Of a stretch of DNA of 16,373 bases, positions 1,366-14,797 are shown piece after piece. Each line of letters opens with the position of its first letter. Position 1 is the stretch's first letter. The translations under genes and the position numbers were made by a program. Origin of the DNA: Candidatus Aegiribacteria sp. (GTDB taxonomy: Bacteria; Fermentibacterota; Fermentibacteria; Fermentibacterales; Fermentibacteraceae); NCBI GenBank assembly GCA_021107345.1, contig JAIOSX010000073.1, forward strand, positions 1-16,373, given 5' to 3'. The notes under the pieces were generated by a model, which saw nothing but the letters and a program-made list of their open reading frames with translations, was not told the origin of the DNA and ran no database searches.

Positions 1366-4300
1366 ATGTTTAAAGCTCTCCTTGTTTCCATATTAATTCT
1401 GGCAGCTGTCTCAGCTGAAACGATAACAGCGGATCTTATCCCCAGGCTCGGTGGCCGGATACGCCTGAATGAAACTTCCAGGGGATCCGTACCGGAGTTA
1501 CCTGGAAGCTACGCTGCAACTGAAGAGGGCTTCCCGATGCTTCCTCAATTCCCCATGACGGTAGAACTTCCTTCAGGGTCGGGTGCTGTTTCAGTTTCTT
1601 CATCCGAGAGCTGGGAAACCGTTGCAGCATCGGTGTTCATCCCCCCTCTTTCAAGGCCGCTTCCGCTTATCTTTGAACAGGCTGATAATGTTGCTGCACA
1701 GAACAATGATGTGTACGGTTCAGACAGCTTCTGGCCATCAGAACCGGTTGAACTTACCGGAACGGGCTTCATGAACGGATCACCGGTAGCGGAACTAGCG
1801 GTAACTCCAATGAGATGGAACCCGGCAACAGGTGAGCTTCAGAGGCTTTCTTCCCTTGAGGTACATATCGAAACGGCACCGCTTTCTGCCAGCCCCCTGC
1901 CATCGGTAGATTCAGGAGCGGCCAGAAGGATGCTGATAGTTACGGATGCCTCCTTTGAGTCAGCTTTCAGTGACCTTGCGGATAGGCGAAACGACCAGGG
2001 CATCCTTACCGAGATATACACAATGGACGAGATTTACCTTTCTGCTTCAGGGCGTGATAACGCTGAAAAACTCAGGAACTTCGTCATAGATTACTACACC
2101 ACAAATGGCCTTGATTTCCTTCTTCTGGGTGGAGATACAAATGCAGTACCCCTAAGGTACGCCTACGCCATGACCTGTGAAGCGGGATTTCACGTACGTG
2201 AGGACAGTCTGCCATGTGACCTCTACTTCTCAGACCTTGACGGAACCTGGGACGCGAACGGCAATGACATCTTCGGCGAAGTTTCGGACAATGTGGATCT
2301 TCATCCTGATATTTTCGTAGGAAGGGCCACGGTCGAGAACGTTACCGAGGCGGAAACCTTCGTGGCCAATATCGCCGCCTACGAAGACTGCGTTCAGGAC
2401 GATCATCTCCAGAAGATACTGTTCCTGGCAGAGATTCTATGGATGAATCCCTATACCAATTCCGCTGAAAGCAAGGATTATATCGACGAGGAGTTCCTTC
2501 CCGATTTCCTTGATATTACAAAACTTTACCAAGCCCTCGGGAACGAGAACCTGAGCACAACAATGGCAGCATTGAATGAAGGGCAGAATTTCATCAATCA
2601 TGACGGGCACGCGTGGTACTCAGGCATAGGAGTTGGCGATGATTTCATGGGAATCAGTGATGTGAACGCTGTAAATTCCGACGGAAGGTTCACCGCTTCA
2701 ATGTATTCCATCGGATGCTGGAGCGCGGCATTTGATTTTGACGCCATAGGCGAGCATTTCGTAACAAATCCGAACGGATGCACAGTGGGATTCATCGGAA
2801 ATTCGAGTTACGGGTGGGGTTCACCGGGAAACCCCTGCTACGGGTACTCAGACGCACTCGATCATCTGTACCATGATTACCTTTACAGTGACCGGAGCCT
2901 GACAAACGGAGAACTGCTGGCTCTTACCAAAGAGTATTTCATACCTTACAGCCAGTGGGAAAATGTTTACAGATGGCACCAGTACGATGTGAACCTTCTT
3001 GGTGACCCTTCTCTTCGTTCTTACAGGAAATATCCTGTGGCGATAACCGTCGACTGCCCGGATATAATCACTGTGAATACATCGCTCATACCGGTACATG
3101 TTTCCGGAGCTAATCCTGCAGGGCTGATCGTCTGCGTTCATGATGAGGGAACTAACTGGGATGTAACGAAGCTGGACGCATCCGGAGCGTATACTTTTGT
3201 TTTAGGAAGCCCCGTTACCGGGAATGTAAGAGTTACCGTAACCGGACCGGATGTAAGAAGAACCACTGTTGATATACTCCAGGCAACCGGACCTGACCCG
3301 GTAATTTCCCAGCTTATCATTGATGATGACATGGGGTACGGACAGCTTTCTCCCGCATGCACCGCCGAACTACACATCACCCTTCTCAACCAGGGAAACG
3401 AAAACCTAACAAACGTAGAGCTTGTAATAGATACGGTGACCGGACCGGGAGCTGTCATTCAGAATTCAAGCTTATTCGGTAGTATCGATGCCGGAAATGA
3501 ATCCACAGGATCACCATCCCTCTCTATTCAGGTGGATTCTTCAGCAGTAAATGGTAATGTGATTGCCCTTAAGGGTGAAATACAGTCAACTCAGGGAAAC
3601 TGGGACATCAATATTTCTTTACTTGTGTATGCGCCAGGTCTCTACTTCGCAACTTACAGCGTAGATGACAGTACATCCGGTAACTCGAACGGTATTCCGG
3701 AACCGGGGGAAACCTTCGATCTGATAGCTTCTATAGCAAACGTGGGAATGCTGAATGCATCATCTGTATCCTGCGTAATGACCGGATATCCAAGTGACGT
3801 AACATGGTTATCTGATTCGGCTTTTGTCGACTCGATTCCACAGGGCTCCACTGAAACCTTTACCTTTGTCTGTCAACTGAACCCGGGTACTCCCTCTCCC
3901 TCTTTCCCGTGGCTCTTTTTCGATATCCTTTCTGTGACTGCTGATTATCAGTCTTGTGATTCGCTTAGGCTGACGGTAGGCGAAACCGGAATCTCCAACG
4001 ATGTAGAATCCGGAGTCGCAGGATGGATACACTCCGGTACCGGTGACCTGTGGAACATCTCCACATCTGACAATCATTCCCCCGACCACTCATGGCATTG
4101 CGGTGATTCAGAAGGATACGACCCGAATATGGACTGCAGCCTGTTTTCACCGGAATTGATACTGGCCCCCGATGCCCAGCTCAGTTTCTGGGCAACTTTC
4201 GATGTTGCCATTTACGGTACAGACGGACTGTACATTATAATAAACGACCTTGATGACATTTCATCTGATACTCTTGATTACATCGGGTCCGGTGGCGCTC

Positions 4301-4761
4301 TTGGAAGTGATTTCCGGGGAACCGGAACAGGATGGTGTGAATGGAGCTACGACCTGAGCAGCTGGGAAGCAGGCGACAACATCCAGGTGGAATTCAGGTT
4401 CTGCTCCGATGACGATTCATCTACCGGTTCCGGCTTTTATATCGACGATATTTCTATTCAGGGAGCCTATGTAGGTTCAACGGGAGTTTCAACTCGACCT
4501 CATGTAATCCCTGTTCTGGGTCTTCCCTCCCCTAATCCCGTTTCAGATTGCTTCTCGATACCTCTTAATATCACAGCTCAGGGAAGCTGGAACCTTACTC
4601 TGTACGACATTTCGGGACGGATGGTTCTTTTGAGAGAAGGCCAATCACCATTTCTGGATGTGATTGAGATGGATGTTTCACACCTCTCTTCAGGTGTTTA
4701 CTTCCTCAGGCTTTCAGGCTCTGCGGAAGCTGCGGGAAGGCTGGTGCTGCTGAGAGAATAG
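1366..4761 (+). CDS. Secreted gingipain-type peptidase C25 with C-terminal type IX sorting domain
   Basis: This is a 1131-residue multidomain secreted cysteine peptidase. Residues 1-18 are a signal peptide. About 20-185 resemble the C25 propeptide (G-F-P-M-L-P and V-E-L-P-S-G motifs). About 188-555 form the C25 catalytic domain, with the His in INHDGHA (H415) and the Cys in YSIGCWS (C451) as the expected catalytic dyad, 36 residues apart. The typical closing motif LLGDPSL is at 544-550. Two or more Ig/CARDB-like beta domains follow (about 560-870). A jelly-roll/MAM-like domain of the kind attached to immune-inhibitor-A peptidases is at about 875-1035 (ends FYIDDISIQG). The type A sorting domain at about 1052-1131 has P-S-P-N-P, L-Y-D-I-S-G-R and S-S-G-V-Y-F-L-R-L. 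The family cleaves proteins at the surface or outside the cell; substrate specificity is not readable here. AGGTGG lies just before the ATG. It ends 12 bases from the convergent neighbour, with no terminator between. Confidence 0.93.
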   Translation: MFKALLVSILILAAVSAETITADLIPRLGGRIRLNETSRGSVPELPGSYAATEEGFPMLPQFPMTVELPSGSGAVSVSSSESWETVAASVFIPPLSRPLPLIFEQADNVAAQNNDVYGSDSFWPSEPVELTGTGFMNGSPVAELAVTPMRWNPATGELQRLSSLEVHIETAPLSASPLPSVDSGAARRMLIVTDASFESAFSDLADRRNDQGILTEIYTMDEIYLSASGRDNAEKLRNFVIDYYTTNGLDFLLLGGDTNAVPLRYAYAMTCEAGFHVREDSLPCDLYFSDLDGTWDANGNDIFGEVSDNVDLHPDIFVGRATVENVTEAETFVANIAAYEDCVQDDHLQKILFLAEILWMNPYTNSAESKDYIDEEFLPDFLDITKLYQALGNENLSTTMAALNEGQNFINHDGHAWYSGIGVGDDFMGISDVNAVNSDGRFTASMYSIGCWSAAFDFDAIGEHFVTNPNGCTVGFIGNSSYGWGSPGNPCYGYSDALDHLYHDYLYSDRSLTNGELLALTKEYFIPYSQWENVYRWHQYDVNLLGDPSLRSYRKYPVAITVDCPDIITVNTSLIPVHVSGANPAGLIVCVHDEGTNWDVTKLDASGAYTFVLGSPVTGNVRVTVTGPDVRRTTVDILQATGPDPVISQLIIDDDMGYGQLSPACTAELHITLLNQGNENLTNVELVIDTVTGPGAVIQNSSLFGSIDAGNESTGSPSLSIQVDSSAVNGNVIALKGEIQSTQGNWDINISLLVYAPGLYFATYSVDDSTSGNSNGIPEPGETFDLIASIANVGMLNASSVSCVMTGYPSDVTWLSDSAFVDSIPQGSTETFTFVCQLNPGTPSPSFPWLFFDILSVTADYQSCDSLRLTVGETGISNDVESGVAGWIHSGTGDLWNISTSDNHSPDHSWHCGDSEGYDPNMDCSLFSPELILAPDAQLSFWATFDVAIYGTDGLYIIINDLDDISSDTLDYIGSGGALGSDFRGTGTGWCEWSYDLSSWEAGDNIQVEFRFCSDDDSSTGSGFYIDDISIQGAYVGSTGVSTRPHVIPVLGLPSPNPVSDCFSIPLNITAQGSWNLTLYDISGRMVLLREGQSPFLDVIEMDVSHLSSGVYFLRLSGSAEAAGRLVLLRE

Positions 4762-6112: not shown

Positions 6113-7138
6113 ATGAAAGTTTTCTATGCATCAACCTCTGGTGGTGTGCAACGTGCCGTTGCAGATCTGCTTGATGCCGCTGACTGGAAGAAACTGCTTC
6201 CCCGTAAAGAAGACATTCTGATAAAGATTAACCTCACCTGGGATTACGTAAGACCGGGAGTTGATACCTCACCGTGGGTTGTTGAAGCGTTCGCCAAAAA
6301 AGTAAAAGATCATGTTGGACAGATTTACCTTGGTGAATCAAGCCAGATACTGGTTGATGCAACCAGAGCTTATACTGTGACCAGAATGAAAGAGGTCGCC
6401 GAAAGAGAGGGATTGATCTGGCACAATTTCTCGGAGAACAGTTGGATCCCCAAGGTGGTGGGTGATCTGCGGTTCAGCATACCGGAGATATGCACGAAAA
6501 TGCCTGTAGTTTCAATTCCGGTTGTAAAAACTCATTACAGATCCGTTATCTCCATCGCGATGAAACACCTTTACGGCTGTCTTGATGACAACAGGCACAA
6601 CTACCATTACAGGCTTGCGGATTACGTTGTAGCTGTAAATTCGTTGATACCTGTTATCTTCACTCTTGCGGACGGTACGGTATCACTTGAGGGAAACGGG
6701 CCGAAACCCGGTATTCCCAAACAGACTGATTTCCTGGCGGCATCAACCGACAGGATAGCCCTGGATTATTCCGTTGCGGAAGTAATGGGCATTGATCCCC
6801 TTTCTGTTTCAACAACAGTGAAGGGAAACGGTGTGTCAGGTTCATATGAACAGATTGAAAACGTATGCGTACCTCCCCTGTCACACCGCCCATCTTTCTC
6901 ATTCAAGAAGGCTGCTCCCAATTTCGTGGCAAAGGTCGAGAAAAGATTCCGTGATAAAAAGGAGCAGACGGGTCCCGGGACCGACAGTCCTCTCTTGGGA
7001 ATAATGAAAACAGGCGCGAAGTGCTGGTACAATCTGGCATATTACCTTTCAGGTCAGAATCGAGAAGCAAGACATTTCATGGATAACAACATATACGGAC
7101 CACAATGGAAGGGCCTGCCCGAGGAAGCTGAACAATGA
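6113..7138 (+). CDS. DUF362 family protein
   Basis: This 341-residue cytoplasmic protein has the features of the DUF362 family (PF04015). The N-terminal part carries ILIKINLTW. In the middle is VVKTHYRSVISIAMKHLYG, with K139-T140-H141 followed by the conserved M-K-H-L-Y-G-C. The family's D-G-(x)n-G-x-G-P stretch follows as LADGTVSLEGNGPKPG. Then comes F-L-A-A-S-T-D-R-I-A-L-D, which ends the core near residue 235. The last about 100 residues are less conserved. Unlike many DUF362 members it has no C-terminal ferredoxin CxxCxxCxxxCP motif, only scattered cysteines. The biochemical role of the family is not established; members often sit beside iron-sulfur or radical enzymes, as here. It is the first gene of the operon, with a GAGGGGG ribosome site. 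Its stop overlaps the next start as ATGA, implying translational coupling with the radical SAM gene. Confidence 0.85.
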   Translation: MKVFYASTSGGVQRAVADLLDAADWKKLLPRKEDILIKINLTWDYVRPGVDTSPWVVEAFAKKVKDHVGQIYLGESSQILVDATRAYTVTRMKEVAEREGLIWHNFSENSWIPKVVGDLRFSIPEICTKMPVVSIPVVKTHYRSVISIAMKHLYGCLDDNRHNYHYRLADYVVAVNSLIPVIFTLADGTVSLEGNGPKPGIPKQTDFLAASTDRIALDYSVAEVMGIDPLSVSTTVKGNGVSGSYEQIENVCVPPLSHRPSFSFKKAAPNFVAKVEKRFRDKKEQTGPGTDSPLLGIMKTGAKCWYNLAYYLSGQNREARHFMDNNIYGPQWKGLPEEAEQ

Positions 7139-8175
7139 ACCTGGCCGGTCAGATAAGTATGGGAATGGATGCCGCACTAGGTCTTTTTGGACGAAGAAGA
7201 CCGGTCAATGTGATGGTGTCCATAACAGACAGATGCTGCAGCCGATGCAGCTATTGCCAGATCCCCGAACAGGGACGACCCGACCTTACAACAGACCAGT
7301 GGAAAGAGCTGTTCCGGCAGATGGCGGATGCTGGAACCCGTCGCATCGGTGTATGGGGCGGAGAACCGCTCATGCGTGATGATATCTGCGACCTTTGCGC
7401 ATTTGCCGGATCCCTCGGAATGTACGTCAGCCTTGATTCAAACGGTTACCTTATACCATCTAAAAGTGAGATATTGAATGACATAGATCATCTGGTACTT
7501 GCCTACGACGGACCGGAGGAAGCCCACGACACGAACCGCGAAGGCGGCAGCCATGAAAAAGTCATTAAAGCGATGGAAACGGCGAACGGCAGGGTCAGGT
7601 TATGGACCATAACTGTTCTGACCAGACATAATATGAACCATCTTGACCACATAATGGAAACAGCGGTCAGATACGGATTTCAGACCACTTTCCAGACCCT
7701 TCACCATAACGAGAAACTGGGGGGTGATACATCGAACATGATGCCTTCGAATGAGGAATACTCGAAGGTCTACAAAAAACTCCTTGAACTTAAAAAGAGC
7801 GGGGCTCCTATCGCCAATTCAACCAGGTATCTTAAGAGTCTCATGAACTGGCCCGATTCCTCGATTACAAGGATGAAGGAGAAATATCACGGTGTCTCAT
7901 GCAGAGCCGGAAGAATGTACTGCAATATAGATACCGACGGAATGGTTTACCCCTGTTCCCTTCTCATAAGCCTTTATCCTGCAGCCATAAACGCCCTGGA
8001 TGCAGGGTTTTGGGAATCGTTCAACAGAACAGCTCAGCTTCCATGCCAGTCATGCACCGCAAGCTGCTATACCGAATACAATTACTTATACGCCCTCAGA
8101 CCCTCTGTGGCCCTGCAATGGCATAATGCAGTGAGGGAAACAGACAGGATGATGAAAGAAAGATCAAAGTCATAA
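7135..8175 (+). CDS. Radical SAM enzyme with SPASM-like C-terminal cysteine cluster
   Basis: This is a 346-residue radical S-adenosylmethionine protein. The [4Fe-4S]-AdoMet motif C-x3-C-x2-C is C34, C38 and C41 (in DRCCSRCSYCQ). The SAM-binding WGGEPLM follows, as expected for the GGE motif. The barrel has the usual LDSNG stretch. After the barrel there is a six-cysteine tail: C256, C263 (MYCNIDTDG), C274 (VYPCSLL), C304, C307 and C311 (LPCQSCTASC). This matches the SPASM/twitch type of extra cluster found in peptide-modifying enzymes and in MoaA-like proteins. The reaction and substrate cannot be told. No small precursor peptide gene is visible nearby, so peptide maturation is not favoured; a small-molecule or cofactor role fits the metabolic operon better (inference). 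It overlaps the DUF362 gene by four bases. Confidence 0.9.
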   Translation: MNLAGQISMGMDAALGLFGRRRPVNVMVSITDRCCSRCSYCQIPEQGRPDLTTDQWKELFRQMADAGTRRIGVWGGEPLMRDDICDLCAFAGSLGMYVSLDSNGYLIPSKSEILNDIDHLVLAYDGPEEAHDTNREGGSHEKVIKAMETANGRVRLWTITVLTRHNMNHLDHIMETAVRYGFQTTFQTLHHNEKLGGDTSNMMPSNEEYSKVYKKLLELKKSGAPIANSTRYLKSLMNWPDSSITRMKEKYHGVSCRAGRMYCNIDTDGMVYPCSLLISLYPAAINALDAGFWESFNRTAQLPCQSCTASCYTEYNYLYALRPSVALQWHNAVRETDRMMKERSKS

Positions 8176-8191
8176 CATACGGGAGAGTGTA

Positions 8192-9688
8192 ATGTCATCA
8201 TTGCCGGAATATCGAACCAGAATTCTTCTTGAACGTGAGAATGTACCGCTTGTAAAGGGAGTCTTCGTCAGCCCGGGTGAGGAACATCCATCCTATCTGC
8301 CGGAAATGCCTCTTTATCTTAAAGCACAGATCCCTGGAGCCACCAGCAGAAAGAAACAAGGCCTTGTCCGCAGGATTGAAACGAACGAAGAGCTTGAGGA
8401 GAATCTGGATATTCTTCTTTCTCCGGGAGAGTGGGGACAGACGGAAGGTGTTCTCATTACAGAAGGGCTCGATCTAAGGTCTGAGTACTATGCAGGCTGC
8501 ATGCTTGATTTCGGCTCAAAGGAGAGGCTTCCCGGAGGTATGCTTCTTTTCAGTACCGAAGGCGGTTCCGGCGTTGAAGGCCGCTCCGGAACACTTCTTA
8601 AAATGTATTTCTCCCTTCTGCAGCCCCCTGCAGCAGAAGAAATAGAGATGGAATTGAAAAACCTTGAAGGCATGAAAGAACATGCTGCTGTTGCCAGATG
8701 CCTGAAAAGAATGATCAGTACCTTTATAGGGTACAAACTTAATGTGTTGGAGATCAATCCATTGGGTGTACTGAGAGATGGCACGGTCGTTGCGGTTGAC
8801 TGCAGGGCTGAATTTGAAAAGTCCGCTGTCAGGAAAGGTGATATGGATGTTTTCTTTCCACCCGGAATTAAGTCATCAAGGGATCTTACGAAGCTTGAAG
8901 AAGTTGTCGAGCTTATCAATAGAGATGATCCCTCCGGTACCGGTTTTTTCAGGCAGAACAGAGAAACCCCGTCTGAAGGAGCTCTCAGAGTTGCCACCAA
9001 CCTTTGCGGCGGTGGAGGTAAAATGCTCTGGGAGATGACCACAGGTTCAAGAACGGACATTTTCACAATGAACGAATCTGATACTTCCGGTGGGCTTTCA
9101 GCATTCAAGAGCTACCGCATTCTAAGGGCTATACTTGCACAGAAAGAAGCTCAGGTTCTTCTACTCACCGGTTCGGGAATGGCTTTTCAGAATCAGCATC
9201 ACCTTGCTGCTGCGGTATGGAAGGCACTCAGGGAAAGCCCCACTCCCCTTCCCTCACTCCTGCGGTTCGGCGGAACAGATGAGGCTAAAGCCAGTAAACT
9301 CTTTGAAAGGGTTACGTACACTCTGCCTGTTCCTGTAAAAACCTATCCTGCTGTTATTTTCCCCAACGCCATGGTTGATGACATCATGGATATGGCCAAC
9401 AGATCGAGGAAAGCAATCGAAGGATACATCCCTCCAGGGGGGAAACCTGCCATAACAGTTGAAACCCCTCCCGGTAAGATATTTTTCTACCCGGAAAGAT
9501 GGCAAAAGGATGAAATCCCTCCATCGGTGAGCGCATGTCCAACAGGATTTCTGAAATGGAGTAGCAACGGATTGACCACAGATCCTGAAGCAAGGTGTAT
9601 AGGCTGCCTCATGTGTGAGACAGCTGCATTGCTCGATGGAAACGGTGAGATTCTGATTGACCTTGAAATGCCGGAGGAGGTGGACTGA
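8192..9688 (+). CDS. Acyl-CoA synthetase (SucC/ATP-citrate lyase-type) beta-like subunit with C-terminal [4Fe-4S] domain
   Basis: The 498-residue protein is the ATP-grasp/beta-like partner of the next gene. The ATP-grasp part (about 1-235) keeps FSTEGG and LEINPL (187-191 carry the Mg-binding Glu and Asn of SucC). The glycine-rich ATP loop of SucC is replaced by PGATSRKKQG. A flavodoxin-like ligase domain follows (about 260-410), with CGGGGKMLWEM and TGSGMAFQN, reminiscent of ATP-citrate lyase (G-G-G-A and G-G-S-I-A-N-F-T). Unusually, a tail of about 85 residues ends the protein with C449-P and C469-x2-C472-x2-C475, the arrangement of FixX-like single [4Fe-4S] ferredoxins. SucC has about 390 residues and no such tail. 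The expected reaction is acyl-CoA + ADP + phosphate to or from acid + CoA + ATP; the substrate is unknown. A cluster-bearing ligase may couple to or be sensed by electron carriers (inference). A GGGAGAG ribosome site precedes the ATG, and the stop overlaps the next start by one base. Confidence 0.85.
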   Translation: MSSLPEYRTRILLERENVPLVKGVFVSPGEEHPSYLPEMPLYLKAQIPGATSRKKQGLVRRIETNEELEENLDILLSPGEWGQTEGVLITEGLDLRSEYYAGCMLDFGSKERLPGGMLLFSTEGGSGVEGRSGTLLKMYFSLLQPPAAEEIEMELKNLEGMKEHAAVARCLKRMISTFIGYKLNVLEINPLGVLRDGTVVAVDCRAEFEKSAVRKGDMDVFFPPGIKSSRDLTKLEEVVELINRDDPSGTGFFRQNRETPSEGALRVATNLCGGGGKMLWEMTTGSRTDIFTMNESDTSGGLSAFKSYRILRAILAQKEAQVLLLTGSGMAFQNQHHLAAAVWKALRESPTPLPSLLRFGGTDEAKASKLFERVTYTLPVPVKTYPAVIFPNAMVDDIMDMANRSRKAIEGYIPPGGKPAITVETPPGKIFFYPERWQKDEIPPSVSACPTGFLKWSSNGLTTDPEARCIGCLMCETAALLDGNGEILIDLEMPEEVD

Positions 9689-10656
9689 TGGCCGGAATAC
9701 TGAAATACATTGCAGGAGTAGAAACACCAAGAACCCTTGTTTTCGGAATAACAGGAAAGCAGGGCAGGAGCAAATCCCGTCTCATGAGAAAATTCGGTAC
9801 CGAGATAATCGCAGGATGCACTCCCGGAAAAGGTGGCCAGGAGGTTGACGGTGTCCCTGTATTCAATTCCGCTGCCGAGGCCGTCAAAGCATTCCCGCAG
9901 CTGAACTCTGCCGTTCTCTTCGTTCCAGCCGGTGCCGTCAGAAAGGCTGCCATGGATGCAATGGACGCGGGACTGAAATTCCTTGTTCTCACAGCTGACG
10001 GAGTCCCAACTCATGATGAGATAATCCTGAAGGAATACGCTTCCACGAAGGATTCTGTATACCTCGGTCCCAATACGGTGGGTCTGCTTGATACGGAGGG
10101 TTACCTTTTCGGGCTGATAGGAGGCAGCGCCACCTGGGCCAAGAAGAATTACAGACCGGGAAAAGTTGGCGTTATATCGCGCTCGGGGGGGCTTTCACAG
10201 CTTCTGGGGGCTTTCCACTGCAGACCGGACCTTCCGGGGCCAAAGCCAGACGGTTCGTACGGTCCTTTGTGGGGAATGGATTATCCGGGGCTGTCAGCTG
10301 TCGTATGTGTCGGCGGAGACCCGGTTCCCGGAATATCAATGCTGGACACCGCAGCGGCTTTTGAGAAGGATCCCCGAACAGAAGTGATGGCTGTATACGG
10401 CGAAACCGGCACAACACAGGAGAACGATCTGGCCGAGGCGGTGATGAACGGTGAGATAAAAAAACCGATTGTTGTCTTCCTCGGAGGTAAATTCACTAAA
10501 GCAGGTGTTTCCCAGAGTCATGCAGGAGCGATGATAAGGAATGAGAATGAAACCTGGGAAGCCAAGCAGAAAGCTCTTCTTGATGCCGGTATAACGGTTG
10601 TTGAAAGACCGGATGCCGTATTCAGCGCAGTTCTGAGGAAATTGAAGAACTCCTGA
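9688..10656 (+). CDS. Acyl-CoA synthetase (SucD/ATP-citrate lyase-type) alpha-like subunit
   Basis: The 322-residue protein has the CoA-binding Rossmann domain (GITGKQG at 20-26), GPNTVG where SucD has GPNCPG, VGVISRSGG, and VGGDPVPG. The phosphorylated histidine of this enzyme class is present: H278 in QSHAGAM. After it the succinyl-CoA synthetase loop GGKGTA is absent and N-E-N-E-T-W-E-A-K-Q-K-A-L-L-D-A-G is found. That resembles ATP-citrate lyase (H-A-G-A, then N-Q-A-S-E-T-A-V-A-K), so the subunit seems closer to the citrate-lyase/citryl-CoA synthetase branch than to housekeeping SucD. There is no C-terminal citrate-synthase-like lyase domain, so cleavage of citryl-CoA would not be expected from this protein alone. 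About 20 extra residues (around PGPKPDGSYG) lie in the middle. It is translationally coupled to the beta-like gene (TGATG), consistent with a 1:1 complex in the cytoplasm. Confidence 0.88.
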   Translation: MAGILKYIAGVETPRTLVFGITGKQGRSKSRLMRKFGTEIIAGCTPGKGGQEVDGVPVFNSAAEAVKAFPQLNSAVLFVPAGAVRKAAMDAMDAGLKFLVLTADGVPTHDEIILKEYASTKDSVYLGPNTVGLLDTEGYLFGLIGGSATWAKKNYRPGKVGVISRSGGLSQLLGAFHCRPDLPGPKPDGSYGPLWGMDYPGLSAVVCVGGDPVPGISMLDTAAAFEKDPRTEVMAVYGETGTTQENDLAEAVMNGEIKKPIVVFLGGKFTKAGVSQSHAGAMIRNENETWEAKQKALLDAGITVVERPDAVFSAVLRKLKNS

Positions 10657-10682: not shown

Positions 10683-11825
10683 ATGAAATACAGAAAATTC
10701 GGTGAACTGGACTGGGAAGTATCCATTCTGGGTTTCGGGATCATGCGCATGCCGCACAAGGAGAAGGAATACTCCGTTATCCTTGAGGACGAGGCCTCGT
10801 CATTGCTTCATCACGCAATTGACAACGGCGTGAATTACCTTGACACCGCATGGAATTACCATGGGGAGGAAAGTGAGTCATTCCTTGGAAGAGCGCTGAA
10901 AGGCGGATACAGGGAGAAAGTGAGGATAGCTACAAAGCTTCCGAGCTGGAAAATCGAGAAAAAGGATGATTTTGACAGATACTTCGATGAACAGATTGAG
11001 CGCCTTCAGACCGATTCCATTGATATCTATCTTCTCCACGCCCTTCAGAGCGACTGGTGGGACAAGGTTAAAAACCTTGGATACCTGGACTGGGCCGAGA
11101 AGAAGCTGGCCGACGGCAGCATAAAGCACCTCGGATTCTCATTCCACGATAAATTCCCCCTCTTCAAGAGGATAGTTGACGAATACGACAACTGGACCAT
11201 GACCCTGCTGATGTACAACTACATGGACGTGGATTTCCAGGCGGGGACAGAAGGTGTTAAGTACGCTGCCGATAACGGCCTTGCGGTTGTAGCTATGGAG
11301 CCTCTACGTGGTGGTCTTCTTGCAAAGGAACCTCCCGCATCAGTGAAGAAGATCTTCGACGAATCAGAGGTTCAGAGAACCCCGGCGGACTGGTCTCTTC
11401 AGTGGCTGTGGGACAAGAAGGAAATAGCTTCTGTCATAAGCGGAATGAATACCATGAAACAGCTTCAGCAGAACATCGCCAGTGCCTGTAATTCGAATAT
11501 CGGAAGCATGACAGAGTACGAAGAGCATCTTCTTGTGAGAGTCCGGGAGGAATACAGGAATAAGGCATCGATTCCCTGTACGGACTGCAGGTACTGCATG
11601 CCCTGCCCCGAAGGGGTTTCCATCCCCTGGATCTTCGAGTACTACAATATGAGCGAAATGTACGAAGCCCCGGAGACAGCCAGGGCATACTACGCCTTCC
11701 TCGACGAAAAGAACAGAGCATCCGGATGCACGGAATGCGGCAAATGCATGGAGCATTGCCCCCAGCACATAGATATCATCAGTTCACTTAAGAAAGCCCA
11801 CGAACTGCTTGATCCTTCAAATTAA
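10683..11825 (+). CDS. Aldo/keto reductase with two C-terminal [4Fe-4S] sites (COG1453 type)
   Basis: The 380-residue protein has an aldo/keto reductase barrel (residues 1 to about 280). The full catalytic tetrad is present: D54 and Y59 (in LDTAWNYHG), K85 (ATKLP) and H119 (LLHAL). The C-terminal 100 residues hold C299-x2-C302-x2-C305-x2-C308-P and the classical C349-x2-C352-x2-C355-x3-C359-P. Each can ligate a [4Fe-4S] cluster. This architecture is known as the ferredoxin-containing COG1453 group of anaerobes. It probably reduces or oxidises a carbonyl/alcohol in the cytoplasm, with electrons passing through the clusters as well as or instead of NAD(P)H; the substrate is unknown. It is the last gene of the operon, 26 bases after the alpha-like subunit, with an AAGGAA ribosome site. 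Its TAA overlaps the convergent channel gene's stop. Confidence 0.92.
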   Translation: MKYRKFGELDWEVSILGFGIMRMPHKEKEYSVILEDEASSLLHHAIDNGVNYLDTAWNYHGEESESFLGRALKGGYREKVRIATKLPSWKIEKKDDFDRYFDEQIERLQTDSIDIYLLHALQSDWWDKVKNLGYLDWAEKKLADGSIKHLGFSFHDKFPLFKRIVDEYDNWTMTLLMYNYMDVDFQAGTEGVKYAADNGLAVVAMEPLRGGLLAKEPPASVKKIFDESEVQRTPADWSLQWLWDKKEIASVISGMNTMKQLQQNIASACNSNIGSMTEYEEHLLVRVREEYRNKASIPCTDCRYCMPCPEGVSIPWIFEYYNMSEMYEAPETARAYYAFLDEKNRASGCTECGKCMEHCPQHIDIISSLKKAHELLDPSN

Positions 11826-12457
11826 GTCAGGTCCCCGAGAACGTGCTTGGTCCTTTTCGCAATTATGGATGTCAGAAATGGTGCAAGAACGTAAACAACC
11901 AGGCTCCATGGTGGTGAGAAGAGGGCGATGAGTATTCCGGTGACAGCAAGTATCGGAACGACCAGGTTGATCTTTACTATACGCATGGCTGCCTTTCTGG
12001 ATACATCCTTTTTCAGAATATCCGGAAACCTCAGCAGCAGCGTACATTGAAAAAGAAAGAATACTCCGATAAGGAGAATATTCATATGAAAGATAAAACT
12101 CGCCGTGAAGTAGTTCAAATGATCCCCTATGAGCCCTGACGAAAACGGAATGACGCATACCAGCAGAAGCTCGCCCAGATTGGTCCATAAATGGTGTGTA
12201 CAGGTGTTGTTCACGTACTTGAACAGTTTCTGCTGGTTAATCCAGAAGTATCCCAAAAGGAGAAAACTTAGTGCATAGGTCCAGAACAGCTCGGAATATT
12301 CCAGAAGATGGTTCAACAGGTCATCGTCTGAACCGATGTTGTGATGTGCTTCGGGAAGCGGAAGGCCCAGCACCATCAGTGTCATGGCAATGGCAAATAT
12401 GCCGTCCGTAAGCCCCTCAAGGCGATGAAGCGGCAGTACATTCGGTCTTTTACTCAA
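11822..12457 (-). CDS. TMEM175/DUF1211 family potassium-channel-like membrane protein
   Basis: This 211-residue integral membrane protein has about five or six hydrophobic segments. The first helix has the family signature R-L-E-G-L-T-D-G-I-F-A-I-A-M-T-L-M-V-L, matching the R-x3-(F/L)-(S/T)-D-G-(V/I)-F-A-I-A motif that forms the pore of TMEM175 channels. Bacterial TMEM175 proteins of about 200 residues have one six-helix repeat and form tetrameric, weakly selective potassium channels; length and motif fit. The start is a TTG at 12457-12455 with GGGAGG about nine bases upstream; the next in-frame Met is inside the first helix, so TTG is preferred. It lies 27 bases after the sorting-domain fragment on the same strand and may be transcribed with the peptidase gene upstream. 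Its TAA shares the bases TTAA (11822-11825) with the stop of the reductase gene on the other strand. Confidence 0.88.
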   Translation of the reverse strand: MSKRPNVLPLHRLEGLTDGIFAIAMTLMVLGLPLPEAHHNIGSDDDLLNHLLEYSELFWTYALSFLLLGYFWINQQKLFKYVNNTCTHHLWTNLGELLLVCVIPFSSGLIGDHLNYFTASFIFHMNILLIGVFFLFQCTLLLRFPDILKKDVSRKAAMRIVKINLVVPILAVTGILIALFSPPWSLVVYVLAPFLTSIIAKRTKHVLGDLT

Positions 12458-12784: not shown

Positions 12785-14797
12785 CTATTTTAATATCATA
12801 ACTCGTTCTACTTTTGAAGCACCAGTATTATCAGTTAACCTAATCATGTATAATCCCTGAGGGAAGATCTCATTATCCCAAGTAAATGAATTGTTACCCT
12901 CGGAAACCTCTCCGGTATGTATAGTATCTATTTTCCGCCCTGAAATATCGTACACTGATATGTCTATTTGAGAAGATTCATGTGCAGATACTTCGATATA
13001 TACACTTGAATATGAAGGATTAGAACCTATTGATATACTTTCTATATTTTCAAGCATTACATTATCGGACAAATCCAAATCAGCATCGGATCCAAATGAA
13101 GCAGTACTATTCTTGGATTGAATTGATTCTTCAGTCCATAACCTTTGTCCTGGATCACCGAACCATGTATAACGATAGAGATTAATATCTGATGCCCAAC
13201 CTGGGTGAATATCTGTTACCTTAAAAAGTACATAATATACTTTGCTTGCAATCAACTGTGGATGTGAATAACTGATCCAGAACAATTGATGAAATATATT
13301 AAGTCCTGTAATATAATTGGAAGGATTATATGTATTCCCAGTAGCTGCTAGGACACCGGATGCCCCGCCATCTGGATTATGAAGCCATCCTTCAGCTTGA
13401 CAAGCATTCTGAAAATGCCTTCCTGTCGCGCAAGTAAGATTTAACACTACAGGATGGTAGTTGTTTTCCAGATTTAACATATCATCATAATGGTAAAATT
13501 CCGGCACATTCCATGAATAACCAGAACGTTCTGCATGTCCAAGATACGTTATCATCCCAACTCCCGAATTGATCGTATTCCTAATATCTTCCCCAGCAAT
13601 CGGTCCATCTTCTCGGAAGTATGTGATAAAACCAAGGTCAGTTCCATAGCCAAATAACCCATCCATTATTGCTTCACAGTAGCCTTTGAATGGAGAATCC
13701 TCATGTGCCATCAGTACCATTTCATTAACAAATAATCTTTGTGGTCTACGTACGCCTGAGAAGTATTCCTCATATTCCAGAATTTTGCTGACAGCAAATC
13801 CAATTTTCGCCGGACTTCCTGGGAATCTACCGATTATGGGACCAAATCGTCCATACTCTTCAATATACCTAGTATCACTGTGAATTTCTTCACTACCATA
13901 GTTAAACGTCCATAATGGAACTCTTGTATGCTGACCTAGTAGTATAATATTCGTAATATCAAATATTTGCATATAACAATCTATAACATTTTTAACCTCC
14001 GCACTTGTCGCTTCTGGTGATACATAAGCCCATCTGATATTATATCCTTGACTTTCTCTATAGTCCATTAAAGGCATGAGTGCGTCTTTATATTCCGTTA
14101 AATTAGCGGGAGGTGCTTGCGGTTTTCCTAAATCTTCATGTGAATAGATAACCAGATAATCCCCTAATCCAGAATCTAATATATTCATCTTCCTCTCAAT
14201 TGTCTCATAATTAAAACACAATGCTTCCAAATCGTCTGCATATCTACTATCGATAGTGAAATTTGAACCAGGAGTTATGTTTATGGAGAAAACACATTCA
14301 TTCAGAGAGAATAATTCATTATTCGATCGATTGTATTGAAATGGGAAAATAAATATCGGAGTAATACCAAATGATCCAGAATTATCTGTTTCTCCTAAAA
14401 ACACTCCCGGTTTCCAGAAAGGTGTTTCTCCTGATTCAATTGGATAATAGAAATCCTCTTCAAAAATCTCTTCAACGGCTGGGAGTTCAACGTTACCCTC
14501 ATACACCCAATTGAGATTATCCAGATCAAGTGACACATTCGAGCCAGGTGGACTAAGGATAAACTTACATATGTATGGATATGAAGGATAAGTCTCAAGA
14601 TAAGTGCGCAAATCACTTTCAATCTCAAGACATATATATTGCGAACCATCAACACCGTTAATAACACTCTGAGTGTAAGAATCAAGACTTATACTTATCA
14701 CAATCTCATCTACAGATTCAGAGATTACCTCAAAATTGACTGATGACGCTATGGCAATAATGGATAAAACAATCAATACTAAAAATGCTGTTTTCAT
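12785..14797 (-). CDS. Secreted peptidase C25 (gingipain-type) with type IX sorting domain, AT-rich
   Basis: The 670-residue protein begins with a signal peptide (MKTAFLVLIVLSIIAIASS). About 20-215 are a propeptide-like beta-rich region with an F-G-I-T-P-I-F-I-F-P-F-Q-Y stretch. The C25 catalytic domain follows (about 218-565): the His is H421 in ITYLGHAERSG, the Cys is C456 in LNLTCATGRHF (gingipains have C-N-T-G), 35 residues apart, and WFGDPGQ closes the domain. The sorting domain (about 585-670) has S-N-P-S, V-Y-D-I-S-G-R-K-I and F-P-Q-G-L-Y-M-I-R-L. It is more compact than the peptidase at 1366-4761, with no Ig or jelly-roll domains between the catalytic and sorting parts. AGGAGGGGG precedes the ATG. 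The gene is visibly AT-richer than its neighbours, suggesting transfer or recombination. Confidence 0.92.
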   Translation of the reverse strand: MKTAFLVLIVLSIIAIASSVNFEVISESVDEIVISISLDSYTQSVINGVDGSQYICLEIESDLRTYLETYPSYPYICKFILSPPGSNVSLDLDNLNWVYEGNVELPAVEEIFEEDFYYPIESGETPFWKPGVFLGETDNSGSFGITPIFIFPFQYNRSNNELFSLNECVFSINITPGSNFTIDSRYADDLEALCFNYETIERKMNILDSGLGDYLVIYSHEDLGKPQAPPANLTEYKDALMPLMDYRESQGYNIRWAYVSPEATSAEVKNVIDCYMQIFDITNIILLGQHTRVPLWTFNYGSEEIHSDTRYIEEYGRFGPIIGRFPGSPAKIGFAVSKILEYEEYFSGVRRPQRLFVNEMVLMAHEDSPFKGYCEAIMDGLFGYGTDLGFITYFREDGPIAGEDIRNTINSGVGMITYLGHAERSGYSWNVPEFYHYDDMLNLENNYHPVVLNLTCATGRHFQNACQAEGWLHNPDGGASGVLAATGNTYNPSNYITGLNIFHQLFWISYSHPQLIASKVYYVLFKVTDIHPGWASDINLYRYTWFGDPGQRLWTEESIQSKNSTASFGSDADLDLSDNVMLENIESISIGSNPSYSSVYIEVSAHESSQIDISVYDISGRKIDTIHTGEVSEGNNSFTWDNEIFPQGLYMIRLTDNTGASKVERVMILK

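Follow-up and report, generated by a model that had tools for sequence, protein, structure and literature searches.

The 16,373-nucleotide window analyzed here (contig JAIOSX010000073.1 of Candidatus Aegiribacteria sp., phylum Fermentibacterota) encodes a SucC-like CoA-ligase β subunit that runs on into a C-terminal ferredoxin-like domain (sucC_Fd) and is followed by a SucD-like α subunit. Judging from the sequences compared below, this fusion is real and conserved, and, as far as our searches reach, such a domain variant of this familiar superfamily has not been described. Enzymes of the succinyl-CoA synthetase (SCS) superfamily are textbook enzymes of substrate-level phosphorylation and are not known to use redox cofactors. 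A ferredoxin-tailed branch present in several phyla would open two possibilities to direct test, namely, redox control of substrate-level phosphorylation and its physical coupling to ferredoxin chemistry. The cell's electron carriers may connect to, or gate, an ATP-linked enzyme of this kind, which might also account in part for how uncultured anaerobes such as the Fermentibacterota conserve energy.

A sequence-only reading of this stretch had proposed a ligase with a single [4Fe-4S] ferredoxin-like domain at its C terminus, and our analysis bears this out: the 498-residue protein has C449 followed by proline and then C469xxC472xxC475, which is the CP...CxxCxxC order that the same reading had likened to FixX. 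Its claims that the tail is not a separate gene and that the α-like gene starts on the stop codon also hold, because the frame at 8192-9688 is unbroken from the ligase part through the tail, with all four cysteines in it, and the SucD-like start codon overlaps the stop codon (TGATG). Cysteine conservation across homologs, put forward as a check, was found: each of the four positions is Cys in 118 or 119 of the best 120 homologs, the exceptions being one truncated and one altered-tail sequence. This four-cysteine set (Cys-Pro, Cys-Ser, or Cys-Lys being allowed) was present in 119 of 119 full-length members, a collection from which 9 of the 120 listed proteins had been dropped because of their length or because an anchor motif was missing, and to which 8 locus proteins, some perhaps duplicates, had been added. 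Even tails that are only 36% identical retain the four cysteines. The predicted structure of the SucC-like protein (predicted template modeling score [pTM], 0.59) suggests a ferredoxin-like fold in the tail, and the β tail probably binds one [4Fe-4S] cluster via these residues. The tail shares its cysteine order, and possibly its fold, with the FixX/EtfX ferredoxin (7koe_D) and other [4Fe-4S] ferredoxins; unlike FixX/EtfX, it is fused to a CoA ligase and is not part of an Etf complex.

Three divergent members, all from Fermentibacterota (L029, L030, and L053), carry CxxCx4CxxxCP together with CxxCxxCxxxC, which amounts to ligand sets for two [4Fe-4S] clusters; Pfam ferredoxin models reach the L029 and L030 tails, both below cut-off. 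The set shared by all members corresponds to the second cluster. The extra, first-cluster set is complete in 3 of the 119 full-length members, while 3 have two of its cysteines, 75 have one, and 38 have none (partial sets were counted within 14 residues before CP). A tree of the 38 family rows left from these 119 after removal of near-copies, rooted with four canonical SucC outgroup sequences on a long stem, did not settle whether the first cluster was lost or gained.

The remainder of the pair is recognizably of the SCS superfamily and is distant from its canonical members. With SucCD (3ufx, 2scu), the β subunit shares an ATP-grasp and ligase fold over residues 2 to 403 and the ATP-site residues K44, E187, N189, and D203 (aligned to SCS), which are kept in 119 to 120 of 120 β homologs. 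The α subunit, encoded next to it as in SucCD, retains the SHAGA phosphohistidine loop (H278) and GETG (E239), both residues being invariant in 25 SucD-like sequences. The differences are a remodeled second domain, about 100 extra C-terminal residues that include the ferredoxin-like domain, and a family-specific FHCRP...W insertion in the α subunit. Within the second domain, the NESDTSGG, TGSGM-FQ, and RFGGT motifs are invariant in the family, and similarity to SCS β (E = 0.0024) and to ATP-citrate lyase (E = 0.023) is weak. Both subunits fall below the curated cut-offs for the canonical enzyme (β, 55.2 versus 375.55 bits for TIGR01016 [SucC]; α, 204.7 versus 336 bits for SucD). The ATP-grasp_2 model scores below cut-off in the relatives L012 (21.0) and L029 (21.9) and has no listed match in L030. 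Absence of a family from the fold match lists was not used as evidence. Beyond the tail, three β cysteines are conserved among the 120 homologs, namely, C272 (9005-9007; 120), C103 (8498-8500; 118), and C204 (8801-8803; 116), and in the α subunit C178 (10219-10221, inside the family-specific insertion) and C207 (10306-10308) are Cys in 25 of 25 sequences; conceivably, these residues could make up another metal or redox site where the two subunits meet.

In the genome search suggested by the sequence-only reading, a profile recovered the same fusion from 30 of 42 Fermentibacterota genomes; other phyla contributed single genomes. There, the only genomes to match were the seeds: one among the 282 that share a phylum with the Myxococcota genome G006 and one among the 96 of its class, one among the 294 that share a phylum with the Phycisphaerae genome G008 and two among the 114 of its order, and one among the 39 that share a phylum with the Riflebacteria genome. 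The named records are metagenome-assembled genomes, so that absences are soft. The list of homologs also includes proteins named as Deltaproteobacteria, Proteobacteria, and Myxococcota; the nearest named homolog is a Candidatus Aegiribacteria protein with 86% identity. A SucD-like gene accompanies the fusion in 30 of 32 loci. Matches reach the last residues of the family in 28 of the 30 Fermentibacterota genomes, and the other two, partial matches run into a contig end or stop no more than 60 bases short of one, which rules out a gene-prediction artifact or misassembly. We found no tail-less close relative at E ≤ 1e-60 in the groups searched (overlapping sets of 282, 294, 42, 114, 96, and 39 genomes), a soft negative in that the seed genomes alone matched outside Fermentibacterota and some first-pass candidates in the sets of 282, 294, 114, and 96 were unscored. 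Phage families gave no match. No description of the fusion appears in the titles and abstract beginnings searched. Automatic annotation has nevertheless met it, as in Joint Genome Institute product names like "succinyl-CoA synthetase beta subunit/ferredoxin-like protein FixX"; source names in the homolog listing seem automatic or read "hypothetical protein."

Canonical SucC (E ≤ 1e-20) was found in 18 of the 42 Fermentibacterota genomes, of which 14 belong to the 30 that carry the fusion and 4 to the 12 that lack it (two of these matches, in G001 and G602, are fragments), as well as in the four other-phylum genomes that carry the fusion (G006, G007, G008, and G011). The remaining 16 of 30 fusion-bearing Fermentibacterota genomes had no match. 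Thus, the fused enzyme is neither a simple SucC replacement nor SucC dependent, and its TIGR01016 score together with its coexistence with canonical SucC rules out plain SucC identity.

In the reading that we favor, and hold only tentatively, the pair is a nucleoside-diphosphate-forming acyl-CoA synthetase of 2-oxoacid/tricarboxylic acid (TCA) metabolism whose one-cluster tail docks with ferredoxin chemistry. An active enzyme of the SCS superfamily would be encoded at 8192-10656; His278 of the α subunit would shuttle phosphate between the ATP-grasp and acyl/CoA sites, and the β tail, holding its cluster through C449, C469, C472, and C475, would most likely let ferredoxin-dependent partners dock and would relay electrons. 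The best partner candidate is a 2-oxoacid:ferredoxin oxidoreductase: the ligase would handle the acyl-CoA that this enzyme makes or uses and would exchange electrons with it, in one direction or the other. Activity, cluster assembly, partner, reaction direction, and acyl group are what we infer in this scheme. It draws on the operon of G008 (L015/L080), which starts with KorA and a KorB-gamma fusion of the 2-oxoacid:ferredoxin oxidoreductase type and has the pair at its end; its gene content provides candidate enzymes for each step that leads from acetyl-CoA plus oxaloacetate to succinate, or the reverse. The sole CxxCxxC in the three operon-strand frames of this 14.3-kb stretch is that of sucC_Fd itself, so the operon encodes no separate small ferredoxin subunit. 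A bolder and distinctly unlikely extension is that the ligase carries the oxidoreductase's ferredoxin subunit on its own chain. In that case, the acyl-CoA and the electrons released or consumed in one turnover would go to the same protein, and a physical complex would link the formation of ATP to the reduction of ferredoxin; an ancestral wire of two clusters may have shrunk to one in most lineages. Ferredoxin subunits of the pyruvate:ferredoxin/oxalate oxidoreductase class belong to the oxidoreductase and usually hold two clusters. The tail differs from those small chains (9bt4_G, 5exd_K) in being a domain on a ligase and in having, mostly, the ligands of one cluster.

Several observations weigh against the docking scheme. 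The neighbors of the pair in Fermentibacterota are radical SAM and often DUF362 genes, not kor; kor genes adjoin the pair in one genome only (G008), and none was recognized among the upstream genes scanned in the Myxococcota genome G006 (L081). POR_N was found in 46 of 46 genomes tested, including 12 Fermentibacterota without the fusion, so that it speaks for partner availability and not for a specific link. Since canonical SucC coexists with the fusion in 14 of 30 Fermentibacterota genomes (as a fragment only in G001), those genomes would have no need of a second enzyme with a plain succinyl-CoA role. At its pTM, the predicted β structure does not fix the distance from cluster to active site.

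The same data bear on three other roles for the tail. If its cluster were structural, merely holding the domain or the subunit assembly together without electron transfer, the tail would resemble subunit D of archaeal RNA polymerase, a cautionary case in which a ferredoxin-like domain has been proposed to carry a structural cluster. We consider this doubtful, given that the four-cysteine set is retained in every full-length member examined, that three divergent members have two-cluster sets, and that one operon includes a ferredoxin-type oxidoreductase; many electron-transfer ferredoxins have ligand sets for two clusters. A redox gate, in which the cluster would respond to oxygen or to the state of the ferredoxin pool and toggle the ligase with no net electron flow, would suit a tail that sits on the same chain as an ATP-linked enzyme, the occurrence of 2-oxoacid:ferredoxin-type oxidoreductases in all of the genomes concerned, and the lack of a constant redox partner gene beside the pair; we hold it to be unlikely. 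That the tail is a decayed domain that has lost cluster binding is very improbable: first-cluster cysteines are indeed incomplete in 116 of 119 members, but the second-cluster four are retained in tails with as little as 36% identity. The suggestion, made in the sequence-only reading, of redox control or electron-carrier coupling stands in part: the fusion, its conservation, and the one operon with a 2-oxoacid oxidoreductase speak for it, while the cluster's function is putative and a structural cluster remains a rival.

As for the acid used, succinate is the most likely acyl group, a leaning from sequence comparison, with citrate or another acid possible. We lean this way because SCS scores nearest for both subunits, ahead of citryl-CoA synthetase, and because 16 of 30 genomes have no canonical SucC match; the presence of canonical SucC in the other 14 and in G006, G007, G008, and G011 argues against it. 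The pair might instead be a citryl-CoA synthetase that forms a split ATP-citrate lyase with a neighboring citryl-CoA-lyase-like protein, an idea compatible with any role of the tail. The ATP-citrate lyase and citryl-CoA synthetase plus lyase systems (6hxq, 6hxj, 6hxp) have a similar fold; human ATP-citrate lyase shares the SG and GS positions of the second domain, and L012 and L015 have a lyase-like neighbor. That of L015 is nearer citryl-CoA lyase than citrate synthase (125 versus 66 bits with the Hydrogenobacter enzyme; 185 versus 111 with NCBIfam models, each below its cut-off), and that of L012 is 83% identical to it. Canonical SucC is present elsewhere in G006 and G008, G006 having two further citrate-synthase-family matches. 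Yet any citrate-synthase-family gene occurs in only 4 of 30 fusion-bearing Fermentibacterota genomes, and a strong citryl-CoA lyase match in 3 of 17 genomes (those of the L012 and L015 loci and G007), with none in the 13 Fermentibacterota tested. Of six residues of the citrate site of human ATP-citrate lyase, only G309 and S343 match and four are replaced, in an alignment that is weak (E = 0.023); family R358 aligns one position off R379, which contacts citrate, and a slight realignment could be enough to recover that match. The citrate-binding-domain model is not among the Pfam matches of the fusion, and SCS outscores citryl-CoA synthetase for both subunits. On balance, we think a citryl-CoA synthetase rather unlikely.

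Features of the window and of the two-cluster relatives are given in Table 1.

Table 1. Positions of the gene pair, its domains and putative ligands, neighboring genes, and two-cluster tails
Feature	Position	Strand	Remarks
SucC-like CoA-ligase β subunit with C-terminal ferredoxin-like domain (sucC_Fd)	8192..9688	+	498 aa, single frame
ATP-grasp_2 domain (PF08442)	8201..8767	+	residues 4-192; 38 bits vs 29.5 cut-off
Second (CoA-ligase) domain	8936..9358	+	residues 249-389
Ferredoxin-like domain	9452..9664	+	residues 421-491
C449 (Cys-Pro), first putative cluster ligand	9536..9538	+	Cys in 119/120 homologs
C469, putative cluster ligand	9596..9598	+	Cys in 119/120 homologs
C472, putative cluster ligand	9605..9607	+	Cys in 118/120 homologs
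C475, putative cluster ligand	9614..9616	+	Cys in 118/120 homologs
SucD-like α subunit	9688..10656	+	322 aa; H278 at 10519-10521, E239 at 10402-10404
Radical SAM protein	7135..8175	+	next to pair in 27/32 loci, all Fermentibacterota
DUF362 protein, overlapping radical SAM gene	6113..7138	+	in 21/32 loci
Aldo/keto reductase with C-terminal 2[4Fe-4S] domain, next gene 3'	10683..11825	+	near pair in 7/32 loci
Two-cluster tail, L029	4298-4594		
Two-cluster tail, L030	2938-3237		
Two-cluster tail, L053	tail of frame starting at 8195		

The radical SAM gene is absent (E ≤ 1e-30) from the four other-phylum genomes with the fusion (G006, G007, G008, and G011), whereas 7 of the 12 Fermentibacterota genomes that lack the fusion have the gene, in 4 cases with DUF362 adjoining; being missing with the fusion and present without it, radical SAM, and likewise DUF362, is ruled out as an obligatory partner. 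The aldo/keto reductase is not core to the locus (7 of 32 loci, some of which end before reaching the gene).

Outside Fermentibacterota, the pair in L012 (Myxococcota) and L015 (Phycisphaerae) comes after isocitrate-dehydrogenase-like, HD, aconitase, LeuC/LeuD-type, and citryl-CoA-lyase/citrate-synthase-like genes, the small LeuD-type frame of L015 being recognized only as an open reading frame of the right size; the Riflebacteria locus L019 has a different layout. These TCA-type operons (L015/L080 and L012/L081), with their HD-domain protein, two aconitase-type hydratases, and citryl-CoA-lyase-like citrate synthase, are possibly an undescribed (reductive) TCA module. Divergent from the Myxococcota operon, on the minus strand (L081:7803-10129), lie NuoE/NuoF-like genes with a ferredoxin domain. 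The window itself also encodes two peptidases of the C25 family that bear Por_Secre_tail domains for sorting by type IX secretion (1366-4761, plus strand; 12785-14797, minus strand) and a TMEM175-like potassium channel protein (11822-12457, minus strand).
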